Assembly (NCBI GenBank): GCA_020831845.1
Contig: JAFIFV010000061.1
Coordinates: 1 to 64,000 of the forward strand
Reading direction: 5' to 3'
Origin: Ectothiorhodospiraceae bacterium
Lineage (GTDB): Bacteria > Pseudomonadota > Gammaproteobacteria > Nitrococcales > Aquisalimonadaceae
Length of the DNA: 64,000 nt
The notes under the pieces are model-generated. The model worked only from the letters and a program-made list of their open reading frames with translations, was not told the DNA's origin and searched no databases. Made by a program: the position numbers and the translations under genes. Each line of letters starts with the position of its first letter. The first letter of the stretch is position 1. Positions 52,491 to 64,000 of the stretch are shown here, in pieces.

Positions 52491-52507
52491 TGCTACCTTT
52501 GGTAACA
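52491..52507. promoter_or_regulatory. Palindrome TGCTACC-TTT-GGTAACA upstream of cbrX
   Basis: This 17-bp site is 7+3+7 with one mismatch and lies 102 bp before the cbrX-like start. It matches the sites before acs (57208) and before the receiver gene (59526) in both arms and spacing. It is probably an operator or upstream activating site of one of the local regulators. Confidence 0.6.
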
Positions 52508-52608: not shown

Positions 52609-52809
52609 ATGCCGCAGTCCCAGGATTCTGGTGCGGGCTCGTACAGTGTACTGATTTTTCTGCTGGCCTTGTTCCTGCTGGTGTCGCCATTCGCGCTCTG
52701 GTGGATGGGGGCGATGCCACCCTGGTATTTCCCGTTTCTGCTCTGGTTGGGGATCATCCTCCTGACCGCCTTGCTCTCCCGCAGCCTGATCCGCCGCCAT
52801 GACCCTTGA
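52609..52809 (+). CDS. CbrX-like small membrane protein
   Basis: 66 aa with two membrane segments (YSVLIFLLALFLLVSPFALWWM and WYFPFLLWLGIILLTALLSRSL) and a basic end. Small proteins overlapping the start of cbrA are called CbrX in Pseudomonas. ATG at 52609 (MPQSQDSGAG) after GGAGGAGCCACC. The stop overlaps the cbrA start by 11 bp, so translation is coupled. A similar small gene precedes the second transporter-kinase at 62325. Confidence 0.65.
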   Translation: MPQSQDSGAGSYSVLIFLLALFLLVSPFALWWMGAMPPWYFPFLLWLGIILLTALLSRSLIRRHDP

Positions 52810-55747
52810 CCTGGGCACGCTGTTCGTCGCGGCGGTCCTCTATCTGCTGCTGCTGTTCCTGATTGCCCATGCGGTGGAGAGCCGCTGGCTGCCCGCGCGG
52901 CTCACCCGCCACCCGGCCGTCTACGTGCTCTCGCTCGGTGTGTACGCCACCACCTGGAGCTACTACGGCAGCGTCGGCTTCGCCCAGGATCATGGCCTGA
53001 ACTACCTGACCATCTACCTGGGCGTGACGCTGGCGTTCGTCCTGGCACCGGTGCTGCTGATGCCGATCCTGCGGCTGACTCGCACCTACCAGTTGACCTC
53101 GGTGGCCGACCTGTTCGCGTTTCGTTTCAACAGCCAGGCGGCCGGCATCATCGTCACACTGCTGATGCTCGCCGGCGTGCTGCCCTACGTTGCGCTGCAG
53201 ATTCGCGCGGTCGCGGAATCCACGGCCGTGCTCACTGGCGAGACTTCAGCCCCACCGGTCATCGCCTTCTGGTTCGTTCTGCTGGTGACCGTATTCACCA
53301 TCATGTTCGGCGCGCGGCATGTATCACCGCGGGAGAAGCACGAGGGCCTGGTCACGGCCATCGCCTTCGAGTCGCTGATGAAGCTGATGGCATTGGCGCT
53401 GGTGGCAATTGTGGCCGTGTGGCAGGCGTTTGGCGGATTGGGAGGCATGCACGACTGGCTGCGGGAAAACCCGGAACATCTGGAGGCTTTCTATCAGCCC
53501 GCCATGGAGGGGCCGTGGACCAGTCTGCTGGTGCTGGCCTTCGCCGCCGGGTTCCTGCTGCCGCGACAGTTCCAGATGCTGTTCACTGAAAACATCAAGC
53601 CCCGGCATCTCTATACCGCCGCCTGGGCCTTCCCGCTGTTCCTGCTCGCGCTGACACTGCTGATCCCGCCCATTCTCTGGGCCGGCACCGTGCTCAACAC
53701 CGGAACCTCGGCCGATTACTATGTGCTTGGGCTGTCGCTGCTCAGCGGCTCGCCCTCACTGGCCATCCTGGCGTATCTTGGCGGCATCTCCGCAGCCAGC
53801 GCGATGATCGTGGTTACCACGCTGGCGATCTCATCCATGACGCTGAACCATCTGATCCTGCCGCTGGCAGGCCCCAACCCGGAACGCGATCTGTACGGCT
53901 CGCTGCGCTGGCTGCGCCGCATCGTCATTGCTGCGGTCATCGCCGCCGGCTTCGGCTTCTACCTGGTGCTCCAGCCCATGGGTGGGCTAGTGGGCTGGGG
54001 CCTGATCTCGTTCCTGGCTATGGCGCAACTCCTCCCCGGGATCGTGGGGTTGCTGTTCTGGCAACGGGCGACCGCCACCGGGTTCATTACCGGACTGCTG
54101 GCAGGCTCGACGGTGTGGGCATTCACCGTGCTGCTGCCACCGGTGACCGGCAGCAGCGTGATGACCCTGCTCGGCTTCGGCAGCCCCGATCCCAGCATCG
54201 GCATGGACCAGTCCGCCACTTTCTGGTCGCTCAGCATCAATGCCTTCCTGTTCGTCATCGTGTCGCTGCTGACCCGCCCGGACAAGCAGGAGCAGGAGGC
54301 GGCCGCCGCCTGCCGGGAACTGACACCGGTGCTGCCCATCGGCGATCTGCACGCCCGTTCGCCGGATCAGTTCGTGGAGCAGCTGAGTGCGGTGATGGGC
54401 TCTGAAACAGCCTTTGCCGAGGTGGACAAGGCGCTGCGGGAACTGGGCCTGAGCTGGCAGGAGAACCGTCCGAATCATCTACACGGCCTGCGCTCGCAGA
54501 TCCAACGCAACCTCTCCGGCATCATGGGCCCGGTGCTCGCGCGCATGATCGTGGACGAGCGGCTGGAACTTGACACCGAAAACCGGACGGCGCTGGCACA
54601 GAACGTACGTCTGATCGAGGACCGGCTGGAGACCTCGCAAACCCGTCTCAAGGGCCTGGCGGCGGAACTGGACAGGCTTCGCCGCTACCATCGCCAGATC
54701 ATCGAGAACCTGCCGCTGGGCGTCTGCGCGGTGGCCCAGGGCGGGCGGCTGGTGCGCTGGAACCCGGCCATGGCGCAGATCACCGGCATCCCCATGGCGG
54801 AGGTGATCGGCCGCCGCCTGGACGAGCTGGCACCGCCATGGGGGCCGCTGCTGGTGGATTTCGTGGACAAGACTGACAACCATCTGCGCAAACAGCCGGT
54901 GGAATCGGAGAACCGGATCTACTGGTACAGCCTGCACAAGGCCAAGGTGGCCCCACCCGGTCGCACGCGCAGCGGCGAGGATACCGTAATCCTCGTGGAG
55001 GATCTGACGGAACTGCAGTTACTGGAACAGGAACTGACGCACAGCGCCCGCCTGGCCTCCATAGGCCGGCTCGCAGCCGGCGTCGCCCACGAGATAGGCA
55101 ATCCGGTCACCGGAATTTCCTGCCTGGCCCAGGAGCTCAAGGAGGAAGCGACGGACAACCGCAGCGTGCTGCACTACGCCGAGGACATCCTGCAACAGGC
55201 CCAGCGTATCAATACCATCGTCCAGAGCCTGGTGCGCTACGCCCACGGCGGCAACAACGGGCGGCAGCACCTCGTGCCGGTCGACCTGCACGAGGCGGCG
55301 GCCGAAGCGCTGCGGCTCACCATGCTGAGCCGTCGGGCCCAGCGACTGCGTTTCGAGAACCGGGTGCCCGTGGGCCATTTCGCGCTGGGCGACAGCCAGC
55401 AGTTGATCCAGGTGTTCGTGAACTTGCTGACCAACGCCGTGGACGCCTGCGGCGAGGACGGAATGATCACTATCCGCAGCCTGCACAGCGGGGACTGGCT
55501 GGAAATCAGCGTACAGGACAACGGCTGCGGCATCACCCGTGATGCCATGGACTATGTTCTGGACCCGTTCTACACCACCAAACCCCCTGGCAAGGGCACC
55601 GGTCTCGGCCTTCCCCTGGCCTACAACATCATCAAGAACACCGGCGGAGACCTGCAGATCGCCAGCGACGAGGGGGGCACCCGCGTCACCATTCGATTGC
55701 GATCGGCGGACCGGGAACGTGCGGAGGAGGTGCAGCGTGCTACGTGA
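52799..55747 (+). CDS. cbrA: CbrA-like sensor: SSS transporter domain fused to histidine kinase
   Basis: 982 aa, the length of Pseudomonas CbrA. Residues about 1-490 form a sodium:solute symporter domain with about 13 membrane segments (YVLSLGVYATTWSYYGSVGFAQ, LLPRQFQMLFTENIKP). A cytosolic linker of the STAC type follows (about 500-620), then PAS (ENLPLGVCAVAQGGRLVRWNPAMAQITG), HisKA with His764 in GVAHEIGNPVTGI, and HATPase with VFVNLLTNAVDAC, VQDNGCGI and GTGLGLPLAY. All kinase boxes are intact. It likely senses or transports a small solute (histidine in Pseudomonas CbrA) and phosphorylates the CbrB-like regulator downstream. Confidence 0.88.
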   Translation: MTLDLGTLFVAAVLYLLLLFLIAHAVESRWLPARLTRHPAVYVLSLGVYATTWSYYGSVGFAQDHGLNYLTIYLGVTLAFVLAPVLLMPILRLTRTYQLTSVADLFAFRFNSQAAGIIVTLLMLAGVLPYVALQIRAVAESTAVLTGETSAPPVIAFWFVLLVTVFTIMFGARHVSPREKHEGLVTAIAFESLMKLMALALVAIVAVWQAFGGLGGMHDWLRENPEHLEAFYQPAMEGPWTSLLVLAFAAGFLLPRQFQMLFTENIKPRHLYTAAWAFPLFLLALTLLIPPILWAGTVLNTGTSADYYVLGLSLLSGSPSLAILAYLGGISAASAMIVVTTLAISSMTLNHLILPLAGPNPERDLYGSLRWLRRIVIAAVIAAGFGFYLVLQPMGGLVGWGLISFLAMAQLLPGIVGLLFWQRATATGFITGLLAGSTVWAFTVLLPPVTGSSVMTLLGFGSPDPSIGMDQSATFWSLSINAFLFVIVSLLTRPDKQEQEAAAACRELTPVLPIGDLHARSPDQFVEQLSAVMGSETAFAEVDKALRELGLSWQENRPNHLHGLRSQIQRNLSGIMGPVLARMIVDERLELDTENRTALAQNVRLIEDRLETSQTRLKGLAAELDRLRRYHRQIIENLPLGVCAVAQGGRLVRWNPAMAQITGIPMAEVIGRRLDELAPPWGPLLVDFVDKTDNHLRKQPVESENRIYWYSLHKAKVAPPGRTRSGEDTVILVEDLTELQLLEQELTHSARLASIGRLAAGVAHEIGNPVTGISCLAQELKEEATDNRSVLHYAEDILQQAQRINTIVQSLVRYAHGGNNGRQHLVPVDLHEAAAEALRLTMLSRRAQRLRFENRVPVGHFALGDSQQLIQVFVNLLTNAVDACGEDGMITIRSLHSGDWLEISVQDNGCGITRDAMDYVLDPFYTTKPPGKGTGLGLPLAYNIIKNTGGDLQIASDEGGTRVTIRLRSADRERAEEVQRAT

Positions 55748-55835: not shown

Positions 55836-57176
55836 ATGGCGCGCATACTGATCATCGAAGACGAAGACATCATCCGCCGCTCGCTGCGGCGCCTGCTGGA
55901 AAAACAGGGCTACCAGGTGGCCGATGCCGGATCAGTGGAGGACGCCAGCGAAAACCATCACCCCGGCGACTTCGAACTGATCATTGCCGACCTGCGCCTG
56001 CCCGGCGCCGATGGTACCCGCATGCTGGAGCTGGCGCCGGAGGTACCCACCATCATCATGACCAGTTATGCCAGTGTGCGCTCCGCAGTGGAGGCCATGA
56101 AGCTGGGTGCGCTGGACTACATTGCAAAGCCCTTCGACAACGACGATCTGGTACTCACGGTTCAGCGCGCGCTGAAGGAGAACCAGTTGCGGAGGCAGAA
56201 CGCCGCATTGAAGGCGGACGTGGAACGCACCTACCCCGTGGCCGGCATCGTCGGTGAATCCGCAGTAATGAAATCCGTATTCGGTCGGATTGCCAAGGTG
56301 GCTCCCACCGGAACGACGGTACTGATCCTGGGTGAGTCAGGCACGGGCAAGGAACTGGTTGCACGCGCTCTGCATGAACACAGCAGCCGCCGTGACGGGC
56401 CGCTGATCACCGTGAACTGCGCCGCCATCCCGGACACGCTGATAGAGGCGGAACTGTTCGGCCACGAGAAGGGCGCCTTCACCGGTGCGGTCAGCACGCG
56501 CCAGGGATTGGTGGAGGCCGCTGACGGCGGCACGCTGTTCCTGGACGAAATCGGTGAACTGCCCTTCGCCGCACAGGCGCGTCTGCTGCGCGTCCTGCAG
56601 GAAGGCGAGATCCGGCGCGTCGGGGCTTCCCGGTCACGCCGGGTGGATGTCCGCCTGATCGCGGCCACGCACCGTGATCTGGAGAAGAGGGTCAGCAAAG
56701 GCGAGTTCCGGGAAGACCTGTATTTCCGGATCAATGTCATGGAAATCCGCCTGCCACCGCTGCGGGAGCGCGGCGATGACATACTGCTGCTGGCCAAGCA
56801 CCTGCTGGAACGTGCCTGCCAGCGCCTGAAACAGCCCCCGCTGCGCTTCAGCAAGGAAGCCCTGAGCAGCCTGCGCAACTACAGCTGGCCGGGCAATGTG
56901 CGCGAGATGGAAAACGCCATTGAGCGCGCGGTGATACTGACGGACAGCGCCAGCATCACGCCCGATCTGCTGGGGCTGCCAAGCGAAAACGCGGCGGGTG
57001 TCTCGACGATGACGCCGGACCTTTCCCTGGAAGATTATTTCCGCCAGTTCGTGCTGGAAAACCAGGACCAATGCACCGAGACCGAACTGGCGCGCCGGCT
57101 GGGAATCAGCCGCAAGGCGCTGTGGGAGAAGCGGCACAGGCTGGGCATTCCCCGCCCGGCTGCGGTCCGCCGCTGA
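55836..57176 (+). CDS. cbrB: CbrB-like NtrC-family response regulator
   Basis: 446 aa. Receiver with Asp52 ([14 protein letters not shown]); sigma54-activating AAA+ domain with [16 protein letters not shown] (Walker A), the sigma54-contact loop GAFTGA, and [14 protein letters not shown] (Walker B); C-terminal Fis-type HTH ([24 protein letters not shown]). It activates sigma54 promoters from distance. ATG at 55836 after GAAAAGGTGAGTACC; the track start at 55539 lies inside cbrA. acs, with a sigma54-like promoter, is the next gene. Confidence 0.9.
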
Positions 57177-57207: not shown

Positions 57208-57224
57208 TGTTACCGACGGTGACA
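57208..57224. promoter_or_regulatory. Palindrome TGTTACC-GAC-GGTGACA upstream of acs
   Basis: 7+3+7 inverted repeat with one mismatch. Its centre is about 99 bp upstream of the start expected from the -24/-12 element at 57289, a standard position for an upstream activating site of a sigma54 activator. It shares both arms with the sites at 52491 and 59526. Confidence 0.65.
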
Positions 57225-57288
57225 TCGTCCTGGCACACACGGTGGCGCGCCCGAGCCGCGGCTTAAACAAAACAATGACTTGCATTTC

Positions 57289-57304
57289 TGGCAAGGGGTT
57301 TGCT
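57289..57304 (+). promoter_or_regulatory. Sigma54 (-24/-12) promoter of acs
   Basis: TGGCAAGGGGTTTGCT matches the sigma54 consensus TGGCACGN4TTGCW at all invariant positions, with GG and GC spaced 12 apart. Transcription should start near 57315, giving a leader of about 165 nt before the acs ATG at 57479. The gene directly upstream encodes a sigma54 activator. Confidence 0.8.
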
Positions 57305-57406
57305 TGGAAATCATGAGACACCGGTAAGCCTGCAACAGGGCTTCCGCAGACAGGTCGGCCAGCCGGCCCGTGCGCCGGAAACGCGCACCGGGCGGTTAAT
57401 CGCCAC

Positions 57407-57426
57407 AAGCCTGCTAGGCTTTTTTT
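57407..57426 (+). terminator. Terminator-like hairpin in the acs leader
   Basis: AAGCCT-GCT-AGGCTT is followed by TTTTT. The stem is only 6 bp. It lies between the proposed sigma54 start and acs, so it may be an attenuator or a terminator for transcripts from cbrB. Confidence 0.5.
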
Positions 57427-57478
57427 CAGAAGGGGACCGTCCGCACTGGCCGGAACCCCGAGAACAGGAGGAGTTCCC

Positions 57479-59419
57479 ATGTCCGACAGCAAGGTTTACC
57501 CCGTGCCCCCGGAAACCGCCAAACAGGCGCTGCTTCGCCAGGAAGACTACCTGCGCATGTACAAGCAGTCTCTGGACGATCCGGATGGTTTCTGGGGTGA
57601 GCAGGCGGAGAAGCAACTGACCTGGTTCAAGCGCTGGGACAAGGTCAATGGGTCCGATCTCGGCAAGGGCGAAATCCGCTGGTTCGAGGGCGGGAAGCTG
57701 AACGCCGCCTACAACTGCCTGGATCGCCACCTGGACAGCCGCGGTGACCAGACCGCGATCATCTGGGAACCGGATGACCCGAAGGCCGAAGCGCTGCACA
57801 TCAGCTATCGCGATATGCACGAGCGCGTCTGCCGCTTCGCCAACGCGCTGAAAGAGCACGGTGTGAAGAAGGGTGATCGCGTCTGCATCTATCTGCCGAT
57901 GATTCCGGAAGCAGCCGTGGCCATGCTGGCCTGCGCTCGCATCGGCGCGATTCATTCGGTCGTGTTCGGTGGCTTCTCGCCGCAGGCCCTGCAAGACCGG
58001 GTGCTCAACTCCGACTGCCAGGTCGTGGTGACCGCAGATGAAAGTGTACGCGGCGGCCGTAGCTTCCCGCTGAAAACCAACGCTGACCAGGCGCTGAAGC
58101 AGTGTCCGAACGTGCGTACCGTTTTCGTGGTACAGCGTACCGGCGGCAAGATCGACTGGAATGACGGCCGGGACGTCTGGTATCACGAAGCAGTCCAGAA
58201 AGTCTCCGCCGATTGCCCCGCGGAGGAAAACGACGCCGAAGATCCGCTCTTCATCCTCTACACCTCCGGTTCGACCGGCAAGCCCAAGGGCGTGCTGCAC
58301 ACCACCGGCGGCTACATGCTGGGCGCAAGCCTCACCCACCGTTACGTGTTCGACTACCACGAAGGCGAGGTGTACTGGTGCACCGCCGACGTGGGCTGGG
58401 TCACCGGTCATTCCTATATCGTCTACGGTCCGCTGGCGAACGGTGCGATCAGCCTGATGTTCGAGGGTGTTCCCACCTACCCGGACGCCGGCCGTTTCTG
58501 GGACGTGGTGGACAAGCACAACGTGGCCATCTTCTATACCGCCCCCACCGCCATCCGGGCCCTTATGGGCCAGGGCAACGACTTCGTCACCCGCGCCAAG
58601 CGCTCCTCGCTGCGGCTGCTCGGGACGGTGGGCGAACCCATCAATCCCGAGGCCTGGGAGTGGTACTACAACGTGGTGGGCGACAAGCGCTGCCAGATTG
58701 TCGATACCTGGTGGCAGACCGAGACCGGCTCCATCCTGATCACGCCGCTGCCCGGCTGCACCGACCTGAAACCCGGTTCGGCCACGCGGCCGTTCTTCGG
58801 GATCGAGCCGCAACTGGTGGATAACGACGGCAAGGTACTGGAAGGGGTAGCCTCCGGCAACCTGTGCATTGCGCGCTCCTGGCCGTCCATGATGCGCACC
58901 GTCTATGGCGACCACAAGCGCTTCATGGAAACCTACCTGTCGGCCTACGAGGGCAAGTACTTCACGGGTGACGGGGCCAGACGCGACGAGGACGGGTACT
59001 ACTGGATCACCGGCCGGGTGGATGATGTGCTGAACGTCTCGGGCCACCGGATGGGAACAGCCGAGGTGGAGAGCGCCCTGGTGCTGCATCCGAAGGTGGC
59101 GGAAGCCGCCGTGGTCGGATTCCCCCACGACGTCAAGGGCCAGGGCATCTATGCCTACGTCACACTGATGTCTGGTGCCGAGCCATCGGAGGAACTGCAG
59201 AAGGAACTGCTGGATCTGGTCCGCAAGGAAATCGGCGCGATCGCCAAGCCCGACTTCATCCAGTGGGCGCCCGGCCTGCCGAAAACCCGGTCCGGCAAGA
59301 TCATGCGCCGTATCCTGCGCAAGGTCGCCTGCAACGAGCTGGACAGCCTGGGCGACACCAGCACGCTGGCCGACCCGGCAGTGGTGGACGAGCTGATAGA
59401 ACACCGCGCCAACCGGTAA
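57479..59419 (+). CDS. acs: Acetyl-CoA synthetase
   Basis: 646 aa. Activates acetate to acetyl-CoA through acetyl-AMP in the cytosol. It has the AMP-binding motif [74 protein letters not shown], and the regulatory Lys in [17 protein letters not shown], a target of protein acetylation. ATG at 57479 follows AACAGGAGGAGTTCCC. It sits between two transporter-type sensor systems and has a sigma54-like promoter. Confidence 0.97.
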
Positions 59420-59525: not shown

Positions 59526-59542
59526 CGTTACCCTCGGTAACA
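59526..59542. promoter_or_regulatory. Palindrome CGTTACC-CTC-GGTAACA upstream of the receiver operon
   Basis: Perfect in the six inner bases of each arm (GTTACC/GGTAAC). A further half-site, GGTAACA, lies at 59557-59563. It lies between acs and the receiver gene, 112 bp before its GTG start. Same motif as at 52491 and 57208. Confidence 0.65.
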
Positions 59543-59653
59543 CCCCTCTGCGCGGGGGTAACACCCGGCCAGCGGCATCGAAGGCGAAAGGTGCGGTTCC
59601 GGACCGGAGCCGCACAATCAACCAGCCCCGCCCCGGGGCTACTGGAAGCGGCC

Positions 59654-60022
59654 GTGGCGAAGACCGTGCTTATCGTGGATGATGAACCCAATATTCTGCT
59701 TTCTCTGGAATTCCTGATGAAACAGTCCGGTTATGTCGTGCAGACCGCGGAAAACGGGGAGCAGGCGCTGGAGATGATCCGGCAGGCGCCTCCTGATCTC
59801 GTGCTACTGGATGTGATGATGCCCCGCAAGGATGGCTTCCAGGTGTGCCAGGAGATCAGGCAGGAGCACGATACCGGGTCAGTCCGCATCATCATGCTGA
59901 CCGCCAAGGGGAGACACTCCGAACAGGAAACGGGCCTGGGCCTTGGGGCCGACGATTACGTCACCAAACCCTTCTCCACCCAGGATGTGGTCCACAAGGT
60001 CCAACGGCTGCTGGGGGACTGA
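59654..60022 (+). CDS. Single-domain response regulator
   Basis: 122 aa, receiver only. VAKTVLIVDDEPNILLSLEFL with the acidic pair, phospho-acceptor Asp53 in DLVLLDVMMPRKDGF, MLTAKGR (Thr) and DDYVTKPFST (Lys). There is no output domain, so it must act by protein contact or as a phosphate sink. GTG at 59654 after TGGAAGCGGCC; no ATG fits. The next gene starts directly after its stop. The acs-linked LuxR-type regulators of Vibrio and Pseudomonas (CrbR/ErdR) have an HTH, unlike this one. Confidence 0.9.
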   Translation: MAKTVLIVDDEPNILLSLEFLMKQSGYVVQTAENGEQALEMIRQAPPDLVLLDVMMPRKDGFQVCQEIRQEHDTGSVRIIMLTAKGRHSEQETGLGLGADDYVTKPFSTQDVVHKVQRLLGD

Positions 60023-62098
60023 ATGCCCGCGCCGTTGACCCCTCGCGCGAAGCTGGGGCTGGCCTTCCTGCTCCTGGCCGGCGGTGTTGCGGCCACCTTT
60101 ATCCTCATCGGTCTGATCGTGCGGCCTGCGCTGGCCTCCCTGCCTGCACTGCCACTGGTACTGGCAGCCTCGATGCTGGTGCTGGGCCTGCTGCTGCTCG
60201 TGGTCTGGGCCGCGCTTGACCGCCGGCTGATCAGGCCTGTCATGGAACTGACGGAGGCAAGCCGGCAGTTGCTGCTCGGCAAGCCGCCTCCCCCCCTTTC
60301 ACCGCCACGCATCAGCATGCTTGATGAACTTTCGGAGAACATGGGACTGCTGGCCGCCGATCTGCAGCAGAGCAGACAGGACATCAACCGCGCGGTGGCC
60401 TCCGGTGCCGCCGGCCTGCAGGATGAGCAGAAACGCCTGCAGGCCGTGCTGTCGGACATGGATGACGGTGCGCTGATCTGCGACCGCGAAGGCGGGATCC
60501 TGCTCTTCAACCGCACCGCCGCGCAACTGCACGGCGATGACGTGCGGCCTGGCCGCTCCATTTACGAACTTTGGGCCCGGGCCGCTCTGGAACAGAACGT
60601 GCGCGCCTTGCAGAGGCCGCGGGCCACGACCAGCACCGAGGGCCAGCCCGGAGAGCTCTCGGAGTTTCTCTGCGCAACGCTGGAGCGCGGCGAGCTGATG
60701 CGGTGCCGTGTGCGGCTGCTGCCCGCCAGCGCCGCGCTTCGCCCCGGTTTTCTGATCACCTTCAGGCCCGCCAGCGACGAGGCAAACGGGCTGATGGACG
60801 CCCAGCCCAGCCTGCAAGCGGCAGTGGAAGCCTTGCGTTCTCCCCTGGCCAGCCTGCGCGCCGCCGCCGAAAACCTGGTCAGGGAGCAGGACATGGACGA
60901 GGAAGATCGTCAGCGCTTCCAGAGCATGATCGTCCGGGAGAGCCGGGAACTGTCCCAACGCGTGGACTGGATCAGCGAGACCAGCCAGCGCTTCCTGTTC
61001 AACCCCGCGCACATGGCTGATGTCCTGACATCTGACATGCTGCTGAGCGTACGCCTGGCACAACAGGACGGCATTCGGTTGCCCCACATACTGGAAACCG
61101 GCCACCCCCTCTGGCTGCACGCCGACGGCTACGCGATCAGGCGTTTGTTGCTCAACCTGCTGCACCATCTGCGCGACGACCATCATGTGGGCGACGTCGA
61201 GGCCGAGGCGCTGCTGGGCGACCGCCGTATCTACATCGATCTTCGCTGGCGCGGGGAGCCGACGCCAGTCACGGTACTGGATCAATGGCTCGGCGAACCG
61301 CTGGCGGGAAGCCCCGAGAACCTGACCGGTCGCATGGTGCTGGAAAACCATGGGTCGGTGTGCTGGAGCCAGTGGGACAGACGCCGATCCGGGATCAGCA
61401 CGCTGCGTATTCCGCTGCCAGCGGCCCGGGGGCAGCGGAATGCCTGGGCACCGGCCGCTTCCCACACATCGTCCAGCGCCCCCTCCCTGTCCCCCATGCG
61501 GCGGGAAAGCGGCGACCAGCGGCCGCGGCCGCTGTCGGACTCTTCCCTGTTCGACCTCGGACACACTGCCCTGGCTGTGCGGTTCACCCCTGCCGACTCT
61601 CCGGGCGGCTTGCCGGTGCTTAGCGAATTCGCCGCACGCCGGGTAGTCAAGGGCCGGCGGGTGCCAGGCACTGGCTTGCACCTGTTGCTGGGGGACGGAT
61701 CCGGAAAAGTGCCGCTGGACGAGGCCCTGCTACGGCTGCATGCCTTCAGTCGCGGCACGGCACTGGTCGGCCACGAAACCGGGCCGATCATGCAGTTCCT
61801 GCACATGCATCAGGCCGAATCCGGCGCCCGCTTCGAGCATCCGGTGCTGGACATCGCGCTGCTTTCTGCCCTGCTGCACGACCATACCGCCGATCACTCG
61901 TTCGAATCCCTGATCTGGCGGATGGGCCTGGAGCGACCGGAGTCCAGGCCCAGCGTCGCCGATGACGCGGACGGCGTCGCCGACATCTTCTGCCGCATGC
62001 TGCCGCTGCTGCGGCAACGGGGTATCGAACGCGTGAGCGAAGCCGTCGAGGCCTGCAGGCAATTAATGACCGTGCAACAGGCAGGAGGTCACCCATGA
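60023..62098 (+). CDS. Membrane protein fusing a degenerate histidine kinase and a degenerate DnaQ-like exonuclease
   Basis: 691 aa. Two membrane segments (residues about 13-33 and 45-65), a HAMP/coiled region, and a PAS-like domain (about 140-245: LQAVLSDMDDGALICDREGGILLFNRTAAQLHG). A DHp-like helix follows in which the usual HELRTPL reads EALRSPL, so the phospho-acceptor is Glu269. The ATPase-like part (about 340-455) has no clear G boxes. From residue 508 the sequence follows DEDDh exonucleases, but FDTETTGL reads FDLGHTAL, the second motif VGHETGPIMQFL lacks its Asp, and the third reads PSVADDA without His. Both halves therefore look catalytically dead. ATG follows the receiver stop directly; its own stop overlaps the next gene (ATGA). 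Confidence 0.8.
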   Translation: MPAPLTPRAKLGLAFLLLAGGVAATFILIGLIVRPALASLPALPLVLAASMLVLGLLLLVVWAALDRRLIRPVMELTEASRQLLLGKPPPPLSPPRISMLDELSENMGLLAADLQQSRQDINRAVASGAAGLQDEQKRLQAVLSDMDDGALICDREGGILLFNRTAAQLHGDDVRPGRSIYELWARAALEQNVRALQRPRATTSTEGQPGELSEFLCATLERGELMRCRVRLLPASAALRPGFLITFRPASDEANGLMDAQPSLQAAVEALRSPLASLRAAAENLVREQDMDEEDRQRFQSMIVRESRELSQRVDWISETSQRFLFNPAHMADVLTSDMLLSVRLAQQDGIRLPHILETGHPLWLHADGYAIRRLLLNLLHHLRDDHHVGDVEAEALLGDRRIYIDLRWRGEPTPVTVLDQWLGEPLAGSPENLTGRMVLENHGSVCWSQWDRRRSGISTLRIPLPAARGQRNAWAPAASHTSSSAPSLSPMRRESGDQRPRPLSDSSLFDLGHTALAVRFTPADSPGGLPVLSEFAARRVVKGRRVPGTGLHLLLGDGSGKVPLDEALLRLHAFSRGTALVGHETGPIMQFLHMHQAESGARFEHPVLDIALLSALLHDHTADHSFESLIWRMGLERPESRPSVADDADGVADIFCRMLPLLRQRGIERVSEAVEACRQLMTVQQAGGHP

Positions 62099-62325
62099 GC
62101 GCCACCCGCGGACAACCCCGCCGCCGGGAGAGACTGATCGCATTGGCGATCATCGGCTTCCTGCTACTGAATTACCCGCTGCTGGCGATCTTTGCGACGG
62201 ATATCCGTGTGCTGGGCCTGCCGCTGCTCTGGGTCTACCTGTTCGCCGCCTGGGTGCTTATCATCGCCTGCACCGGCTTTCTGCTGCGACGCGGCCGCGG
62301 CCCACGGCAGGACGGGCAGCCCTGA
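62095..62325 (+). CDS. Small two-helix membrane protein
   Basis: 76 aa. A basic N-terminus (MSATRGQPRRRERLIA) is followed by two membrane segments (LAIIGFLLLNYPLLAIFAT and LGLPLLWVYLFAAWVLIIACTGFLL) and a basic tail. It overlaps the genes on both sides (ATGA and TGATG). Like the CbrX-like protein at 52609 it directly precedes a transporter-kinase, so it may be an accessory subunit or regulator of that protein. Confidence 0.75.
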   Translation: MSATRGQPRRRERLIALAIIGFLLLNYPLLAIFATDIRVLGLPLLWVYLFAAWVLIIACTGFLLRRGRGPRQDGQP

Positions 62326-64000
62326 TGCCGCAGTGGGCGATCCTGCTGACCCCATTTCTGTACCTGGGGCTGCTGTTCGCCATTGCCTACTGGGCCGACC
62401 TGCGCGCCCGAAGCTCCCGCTCGCTGGTCAACAACCCCTATGTGTACACCCTGTCCATTGCCGTCTACTGCACGGCCTGGACATTCTACGGCAGCGTCGG
62501 CCGCGCAACCCAGGACGGGGTGACGTTTCTGACCATCTACCTGGGCCCCACACTGGCGGCGGTCCTCTGGTGGGTGGTGCTGCGCAAGATCATTCGCATA
62601 GCCCATATTCACCGTATTACCTCCATCGCCGATTTCATCGCCTCGCGCTACGGCAAAAGCATGCTGCTCGGCGGCCTGGCCACCTTCATCGCGGTGGTCG
62701 GCATCACCCCCTACATCGCGCTGCAGTTGAAAGCGGTCTCCGCCAGCTTCGACGTACTGCTCTACTACCCGGAGGCCACCACCGGGGCCGCCACCGGCGG
62801 GCTGCTGGAAGACAAGGCGTTATGGGTGGCCGCGGTACTTGCGCTGTTTGCCATCCTGTTCGGCACCCGACACGTTGACGCCACGGAACGGCTGGAGGGC
62901 ATGGTGGTGGCGGTGGCTTTCGAGTCGATCGTCAAACTGATCGCCTTTCTGTCGGTGGGGATATTCGTCACCTACATACTGTTCAATGGCCCGATGGATC
63001 TGGTGGACCGAGTGGCCGCCGAACCGGCCATGCGGGAAATGCTGAACCCCTCCGGCCTGCCTGGAGGCTACACCAGTTGGGTGGCGATGATCGTGCTCTC
63101 CATGGCCGCCATCCTGTTCCTGCCCCGGCAATTCCAGGTCACGGTGGTGGAGAACGTCAACGAAGACCACCTGCGCACCGCCGCATGGCTGTTCCCGCTC
63201 TATCTCCTGCTGATCAACCTGTTCGTGCTGCCCATTGCCATGGCCGGGCTGATCTACTTCGGCGACGCACCGGTGGACCCCGACAACTACGTACTCGCCC
63301 TGCCCCTGGCGGAAGGCCGTGAACTGCTGGCGCTGTTCGTCTACCTGGGGGGGTTCTCGGCGGCCACCGGCATGGTCATCGTGGCCAGCATCGCCCTGGC
63401 GATCATGGTCAGCAACGATCTCGTCATGCCCACACTGCTCCGGTTCCGACACATGCCGTTGATCGAGCGGATCGGACTGCGTCGACTGATCGTCTACCTG
63501 CGCCGGCTGATTCTGATCCTGCTGCTGATGCTGGGCTACACTTATTTCCGACTCACCGCGGATGCCTTCGCGCTGGTCAGCATCGGGCTGATCTCCTTCG
63601 TGGCGGTGGCCCAGTTCGCCCCCCCCATACTCCTGGGCATGTACTGGAAAGGCGCCAGCCGCGCCGGCGCGCTGATCGGACTGACCGGCGGTTTCATCAT
63701 CTGGCTTTATACTCTGTTCATCCCGTCCCTGGTTGATCCCGCGTGGCTCCCCGGGATGACACCGGACGGCCTGTTCGAGGGCCTGCATCTGCTCAATCCA
63801 CAGGCGCTGTTCGGACTCACGGGACTGGACGCCATCACCCATGCGCTGTTCTGGAGCATGCTCTTCAACATTGGCGGCATGGTGCTGGTATCCCTGTTCA
63901 CCCGGCAAAGCAACATTGAACGCATCCAGGCAGCCCTGTTCGTGGATGTGTTCGAACGATCGGAGCGTGACGCCCGTTTCTGGCAGGGCACCGCCACCGT
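62325..64000 (+). CDS. SSS transporter / probable sensor kinase (CrbS/MxtR-like), 3' end beyond window
   Basis: 558 codons are visible and the frame stays open to the window end. MPQWAILLTPFLYLGLLFAIAYWAD begins a sodium:solute symporter domain with about 13 membrane segments (YTLSIAVYCTAWTFYGSVGRATQDGVTFLTIYLG, FLPRQFQVTVVENVNEDHLRTAAW). It is parallel to the CbrA-like protein but clearly diverged. By context and length it is probably the acs-linked kinase CrbS/MxtR, but the kinase part is outside the window, so a plain transporter cannot be excluded. The ORF track missed it and shows only shadows here. Confidence 0.8.
   Translation, partial: MPQWAILLTPFLYLGLLFAIAYWADLRARSSRSLVNNPYVYTLSIAVYCTAWTFYGSVGRATQDGVTFLTIYLGPTLAAVLWWVVLRKIIRIAHIHRITSIADFIASRYGKSMLLGGLATFIAVVGITPYIALQLKAVSASFDVLLYYPEATTGAATGGLLEDKALWVAAVLALFAILFGTRHVDATERLEGMVVAVAFESIVKLIAFLSVGIFVTYILFNGPMDLVDRVAAEPAMREMLNPSGLPGGYTSWVAMIVLSMAAILFLPRQFQVTVVENVNEDHLRTAAWLFPLYLLLINLFVLPIAMAGLIYFGDAPVDPDNYVLALPLAEGRELLALFVYLGGFSAATGMVIVASIALAIMVSNDLVMPTLLRFRHMPLIERIGLRRLIVYLRRLILILLLMLGYTYFRLTADAFALVSIGLISFVAVAQFAPPILLGMYWKGASRAGALIGLTGGFIIWLYTLFIPSLVDPAWLPGMTPDGLFEGLHLLNPQALFGLTGLDAITHALFWSMLFNIGGMVLVSLFTRQSNIERIQAALFVDVFERSERDARFWQGTAT

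Follow-up and report, generated by a model that had tools for sequence, protein, structure and literature searches.

According to the literature, CbrAB occurs only in Pseudomonadaceae and acts mainly through CrcZ/CrcY (PMC6296734; PMC8871633). In P. putida and P. aeruginosa, CbrB activates crcZ together with sigma-54; crcZ occupies the slot directly after cbrB, the half-sites (TGTTAC/GTAACA for P. putida CbrB) and the sigma-54 element precede it, and IHF comes between sites and promoter (PMC6296734). The subsites of P. putida CbrB are reported to be non-palindromic and spaced further apart (PMC6296734). P. aeruginosa needs CbrB for acsA expression and to grow on acetate, but the action is indirect, with CrcZ relieving the Crc repression of acsA mRNA (PMC3480352). 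CrbR of P. fluorescens works at ACTU motifs, through which it activates acs, actP, and Pflu5625 (cAMP-binding, CBS, nucleotidyltransferase); the promoters of acs and actP are of the RpoD type (PMC5715377). A literature search yielded no report of direct control of acs by CbrB with sigma-54.

The window (the whole 64-kb stretch of DNA analyzed), which to judge from relatives probably belongs to a gammaproteobacterium, presents such a candidate arrangement, in a locus with the following features.

52491–52507, + strand: CbrB-type palindrome TGCTACC-TTT-GGTAACA, upstream of cbrX-cbrA (sequence match)
52609–52809, + strand: small cbrX-like membrane protein of 66 aa, its gene overlapping the cbrA start (translation)
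52799–55747, + strand: cbrA orthologue, 982 aa, with a transporter-like N-terminus and PAS-HisKA-HATPase (Pfam and alignment)
55836–57176, + strand: cbrB orthologue, 446 aa, with receiver, sigma-54 activator (GAFTGA), and Fis-type HTH (domains, tree)
57208–57224, + strand: UAS TGTTACC-GAC-GGTGACA, 17 bp, predicted CbrB site (sequence)
57270–57282, + strand: IHF-like site AAACAATGACTTG in the UAS–promoter interval, differing from WATCAANNNNTTR at one position (weak alone)
57289–57304, + strand: predicted sigma-54 promoter TGGCAAGGGGTTTGCT (-24/-12), start expected near 57315 (sequence)
57407–57428, + strand: AAGCCTGCTAGGCTT and T-run in the acs leader, a terminator-like hairpin (57407–57421) containing TGCTAGGCTT (sequence)
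57479–59419, + strand: acs, acetate–CoA ligase, 646 aa, predicted target (TIGR02188, 1037 bits)
59526–59542, + strand: CbrB-type palindrome CGTTACC-CTC-GGTAACA, upstream of the receiver gene, with a third half-site GTAACA at 59558
59654–60022, + strand: stand-alone receiver-domain protein, GTG start assumed (domain search)
60023–62098, + strand: PAS protein with a kinase-like middle and a DNA polymerase III epsilon-like exonuclease C-terminus (domain search)
62325–64000, + strand: second SLC5-type histidine kinase, 918 aa in total, extending beyond the window end (domain search)

The original prediction placed a palindrome and a -24/-12 element in the gap between cbrB and acs, and both are present there (57208–57224 and 57289–57304). 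TGGCAAGGGGTTTGCT has the correct GG-N10-GC spacing and is the sole match in the 64 kb to TGGCACGN3TTTGCW at one mismatch or fewer; shuffling gives 0.16 expected matches per 64 kb, and the match by itself is only mildly unusual, not extraordinary. The element lies 73 bp beyond the palindrome centre (57216). With a start expected about 11 bp past the -12 GC, at about 57315, the palindrome sits about 99 bp upstream, the distance that had been given. The flanking genes are also those named in advance: directly upstream, an NtrC-type sigma-54 activator (REC, sigma-54 activation domain with GAFTGA, HTH) and, downstream, an acs that matches TIGR02188. A GG-N10-GC consensus, an upstream enhancer-like palindrome, and an encoded RpoN (rpoN is single-copy in the window's genome) are all read in the sequence, as for a sigma-54 promoter. 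The relative G002 has a perfect IHF match, AATCAAAGACTTG.

Judged by the tree, the recognition helix, and the cbrX/gluQ synteny, the neighboring regulator is a true CbrB orthologue. In the tree, it falls in a 45-member clade (support 100/99) with the CbrB of Pseudomonas, Halomonas, and Cellvibrionaceae, and other NtrC-type regulators lie outside. Its recognition helix matches the Pseudomonas LGISRKCLWER, and the longer helix region matches the Pseudomonas LGISRKCLWERRQRLGIPR. The gene order is gluQ-cbrX-cbrA-cbrB, with a cbrX-cbrA overlap of the same kind as in P. putida (PMC6591292). CbrA proteins are SLC5-STAC-PAS-histidine kinases. The window CbrA, encoded directly upstream of cbrB, is about 45% identical to Pseudomonas CbrA over the full length, the transporter part aligning end to end, and PAS, HisKA, and HATPase are recognized by Pfam.

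The outer letters of the window palindrome are those of the P. putida CbrB half-sites, and TGTTAC/GTAACA subsites can be read in the sequence upstream of the predicted targets. The spacing is different. In this order, half-sites are 11 bp apart (one turn, giving a full palindrome), whereas in Pseudomonas they are about 20–22 bp apart; a further half-site often occurs here 19–23 bp upstream of the palindrome. With such spacings, the sites can share one helix face in both groups, with a full palindrome only in this order. These palindromic sites are relevant to the reported non-palindromic nature of CbrB sites and, cleaner than those of Pseudomonas, they make the disputed binding mode of CbrB testable.

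In all 33 relatives with a contig reaching far enough, acs is directly downstream of cbrB. Gaps of 200 bp or more, that of the window among them, were searched for a palindrome with at least 11/14 matches and, 50–110 bp downstream of it, a GG-N10-GC element with at least 10/13 matches, thresholds chosen after inspecting the sequences; the pair occurs in 15 of 21 gaps, against 0.0 in dinucleotide shuffles. The distance from palindrome centre to -24 varies between 60 and 103 bp across gaps and is 73–74 bp in the window's genus. A recognizable pair is absent from six gaps (G006, G007, G010, G012, G022, and G038) and, in the small-genome genus g9, acs follows cbrB after about 55 bp without such a promoter; the wiring is therefore not universal. 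In 14 relatives without a CbrB orthologue (13 of the same order, with acs 69–77% identical), the pair was found upstream of acs in none. RpoN is nearly universal in the set searched (55 of 59 genomes). The direct wiring of acs to the neighboring CbrB-like protein that had been proposed gains support from the CbrB orthology, the half-site letters, and the co-occurrence of promoter and regulator.

The same layout is seen upstream of a DUF294-symporter operon. In six genomes, a palindrome is present there, in most cases preceded by one or two extra half-sites, and a GG-N10-GC element starts 68–70 bp further on, counted from the palindrome start. This is an independent second case of the acs-type layout.

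Palindromes with at most one mismatch number three in the 64-kb window (0.00 expected) and only four in the whole genome (4.69 Mb), with none for the reversed-pattern control; their occurrence is not due to chance. Three are in one cluster, upstream of cbrX-cbrA, of acs, and of the receiver/PAS-exonuclease genes. The fourth (C18:13698–13714) follows a thiolase gene where its contig ends. In G002, the same thiolase is followed by the palindrome and then by cNMP-CBS-DUF294, DUF4212, and sodium:solute symporter genes, so that the missing neighbor of the fourth palindrome in the window's genome should be the DUF294/DUF4212/symporter operon. The site upstream of cbrX is found also in 20 relatives (at most two mismatches). 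The sites point to a small regulon around the acs promoter, beyond one promoter. We did not find a sigma-54 element at the palindromes before cbrX and before the receiver gene (59526–59542) and, in some families, the palindromes of the symporter genes are likewise without one. At such boxes, CbrB may repress or use another form of the polymerase, or the site may be shared with another factor.

The reading we favor, with a probability of roughly four in five, is that acs has a conserved CbrB/sigma-54 promoter and that CbrAB, in this order, is the direct regulator of a regulon for acetate use. From the arrangement of the elements, we infer the following steps. The CbrA-type sensor kinase would signal poor carbon supply, or a substrate, to CbrB. 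CbrB would bind the 17-bp palindrome at 57208–57224, together with weaker half-sites, and oligomerize. It would then contact the RNA polymerase–sigma-54 at 57289–57304, probably through an IHF bend, and its ATPase would open the promoter, with acs transcribed from about 57315. The same boxes before the DUF294/DUF4212/symporter operon (with a sigma-54 element in relatives), cbrX-cbrA, and the receiver/PAS-exonuclease genes are what would make CbrAB a direct regulator of the regulon as a whole.

Compared with crcZ activation in Pseudomonas, the regulator is orthologous and the slot after cbrB, the sigma-54 element, the half-sites, and a possible IHF site between sites and promoter are alike, but the product there is a CA-motif sRNA and here, as predicted, the acs mRNA. 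Compared with the CbrAB-CrcZ-Crc chain of P. aeruginosa, where CbrB acts indirectly, the action on the acs promoter is predicted to be direct. CrbS/CrbR (MxtR/ErdR) has the same kinds of target: acs, an acetate-type symporter operon, and a cNMP-CBS-nucleotidyltransferase protein. In that system, a LuxR-type activator and an ACTU inverted repeat adjoining an RpoD promoter are used, whereas here we find an NtrC-type CbrB, TGTTACC-N3-GGTAACA, and sigma-54; the symporter partner is DUF485 there and DUF4212 here. The best reading of the putative CbrB/sigma-54 acetate regulon is a new wiring of known parts. It would be a clear case of one metabolic regulon served by different types of regulator and sigma factor in related bacteria.

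Other readings of the acs promoter can be compared with this one. The product of the sigma-54 promoter could be a short RNA of the CrcZ kind or a leader attenuated at the hairpin 57407–57421, with acs transcribed mainly from a separate promoter. In Pseudomonas, Halomonas, and Cellvibrionaceae, a promoter at the same position is indeed followed by a CA-motif-rich, sRNA-like stretch, and the terminator-like hairpin with its T-run is about 92 nt beyond the expected start. However, the TGCTAGGCTT part of the hairpin is kept in relatives without the T-run and is thus not a conserved terminator but more likely an extended -10. Further, no CA motifs and no AAnAAnAA-rich sRNA were found after the window promoter, Rfam gave no CrcZ match, and in relatives the sigma-54 element precedes acs with varied leaders. 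An attenuator or CrcZ-like sRNA at 57407–57421 was dropped on account of the element being kept without T-run and CA motifs, and the reading as a whole appears improbable. The conserved extended -10-like TGCTAGGCTT suggests that acs probably has a second, sigma-70 promoter in addition. The presence of Crc does not discriminate between the readings: a Crc/ExoIII-like protein (42%) occurs here and also in Cellvibrionaceae with CA-motif sRNAs (the Crc query sequence was checked against PDB 2myi).

Control of acs by CrbS/CrbR as in Pseudomonas and Vibrio, using an ACTU motif with a sigma-70 promoter and the kinase at 62325 as CrbS, would agree with what CrbR regulates in P. fluorescens (the cNMP-CBS-nucleotidyltransferase gene, acs, and actP; PMC5715377) and with the presence of an SLC5 kinase 3 kb downstream of acs. 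Yet no ACTU-like motif was found before acs in the window, and on this motif search the control was set aside. Among the 33 CbrB-bearing relatives, there are two weak matches with three mismatches (31/33 have none) and, among the 14 CbrB-less ones, there is one (13/14 have none). The second kinase (full gene L119:2326–5082) is without a C-terminal receiver, whereas CrbS has one (PMC5436829). The palindrome and the ACTU motif also differ in letters and in centre. We regard this control as very unlikely.

Equally little weight can be given to another enhancer-binding protein, for example NtrC, using the palindrome, with the adjacent CbrB incidental. Close to twenty sigma-54 activators are encoded in the genome. 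NtrC sites (TGCACC-N5-GGTGCA) have the same 17-bp geometry as the window palindrome, and the likeness extends to sigma-54 and to an enhancer some 100 bp before the start. But the half-site letters are those of CbrB (TGTTAC) and not of NtrC, the arrangement is lost where CbrB is lost although RpoN stays, and three of the four genomic sites flank the cbrAB-acs cluster. Slimmest of all is the chance that the arrangement is a relic or fortuitous, with acs running from the conserved extended -10 promoter: a lone GG-N10-GC match is not rare and TGCTAGGCTT is conserved in relatives, but the palindrome and the -24/-12 element are kept jointly across several families (0 expected) and recur with the same layout at the DUF294-symporter operon.

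Under the favored reading of a CbrB/sigma-54 promoter, acs is one occupant of the slot behind cbrB. In Pseudomonas, Serpens, Halomonas, Litchfieldella, Gilvimarinus, and a Cellvibrionaceae MAG, the post-cbrB sigma-54 promoter is followed by an AAYAAYAA-rich, CrcZ-like sequence. Families elsewhere in the class have a DUF294-DUF4212-symporter operon (G143) or a symporter (G133) in the slot. In G191 (L144), a palindrome and a sigma-54 element follow cbrB and precede genes adjoining a branched-chain-type ABC transporter, not acs. These three slots again carry half-sites and a GG-N10-GC element. In the CbrB tree, the members with the sRNA form a nested subclade (99/94) with G143, G133, and G191 branching outside, so that an output of the metabolic kind may have come first. 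Besides the window's genome, 16 of 139 others sampled from the class have CbrAB orthologues; those in Gilvimarinus, Halomonas-type, and Cellvibrionaceae genomes argue against exclusivity to Pseudomonadaceae. The range of CbrAB is thereby widened, and the conserved, predicted direct line to acetate activation suggests what the older output may have been.

A broader scenario joins two parts. In the first, the acetate regulon (acs, the DUF294-DUF4212-symporter operon, and the receiver/PAS-exonuclease genes) would be run by CbrAB and sigma-54 instead of CrbR and sigma-70. In the second, the post-cbrB slot would be old and exchangeable (acs, the DUF294-symporter operon, another symporter, ABC transporter genes) and the source of the crcZ sRNA in the Pseudomonas/Halomonas/Cellvibrionaceae line. 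For both parts to hold together, the odds seem to us about even.

At five loci of Gilvimarinus, Halomonas-type, and Cellvibrionaceae genomes (L003, L004, L006, L008, and L011), CbrAB precedes a sigma-54 promoter, after which comes a CrcZ-like RNA rich in CA motifs. In most relatives, the box before cbrX (52491–52507 in the window) is TGCTACCTTNGGTAACA or near it. Within this box, TGCTACCTT resembles an extended -10, which suggests an operator over a sigma-70 promoter and a possible autoregulation.
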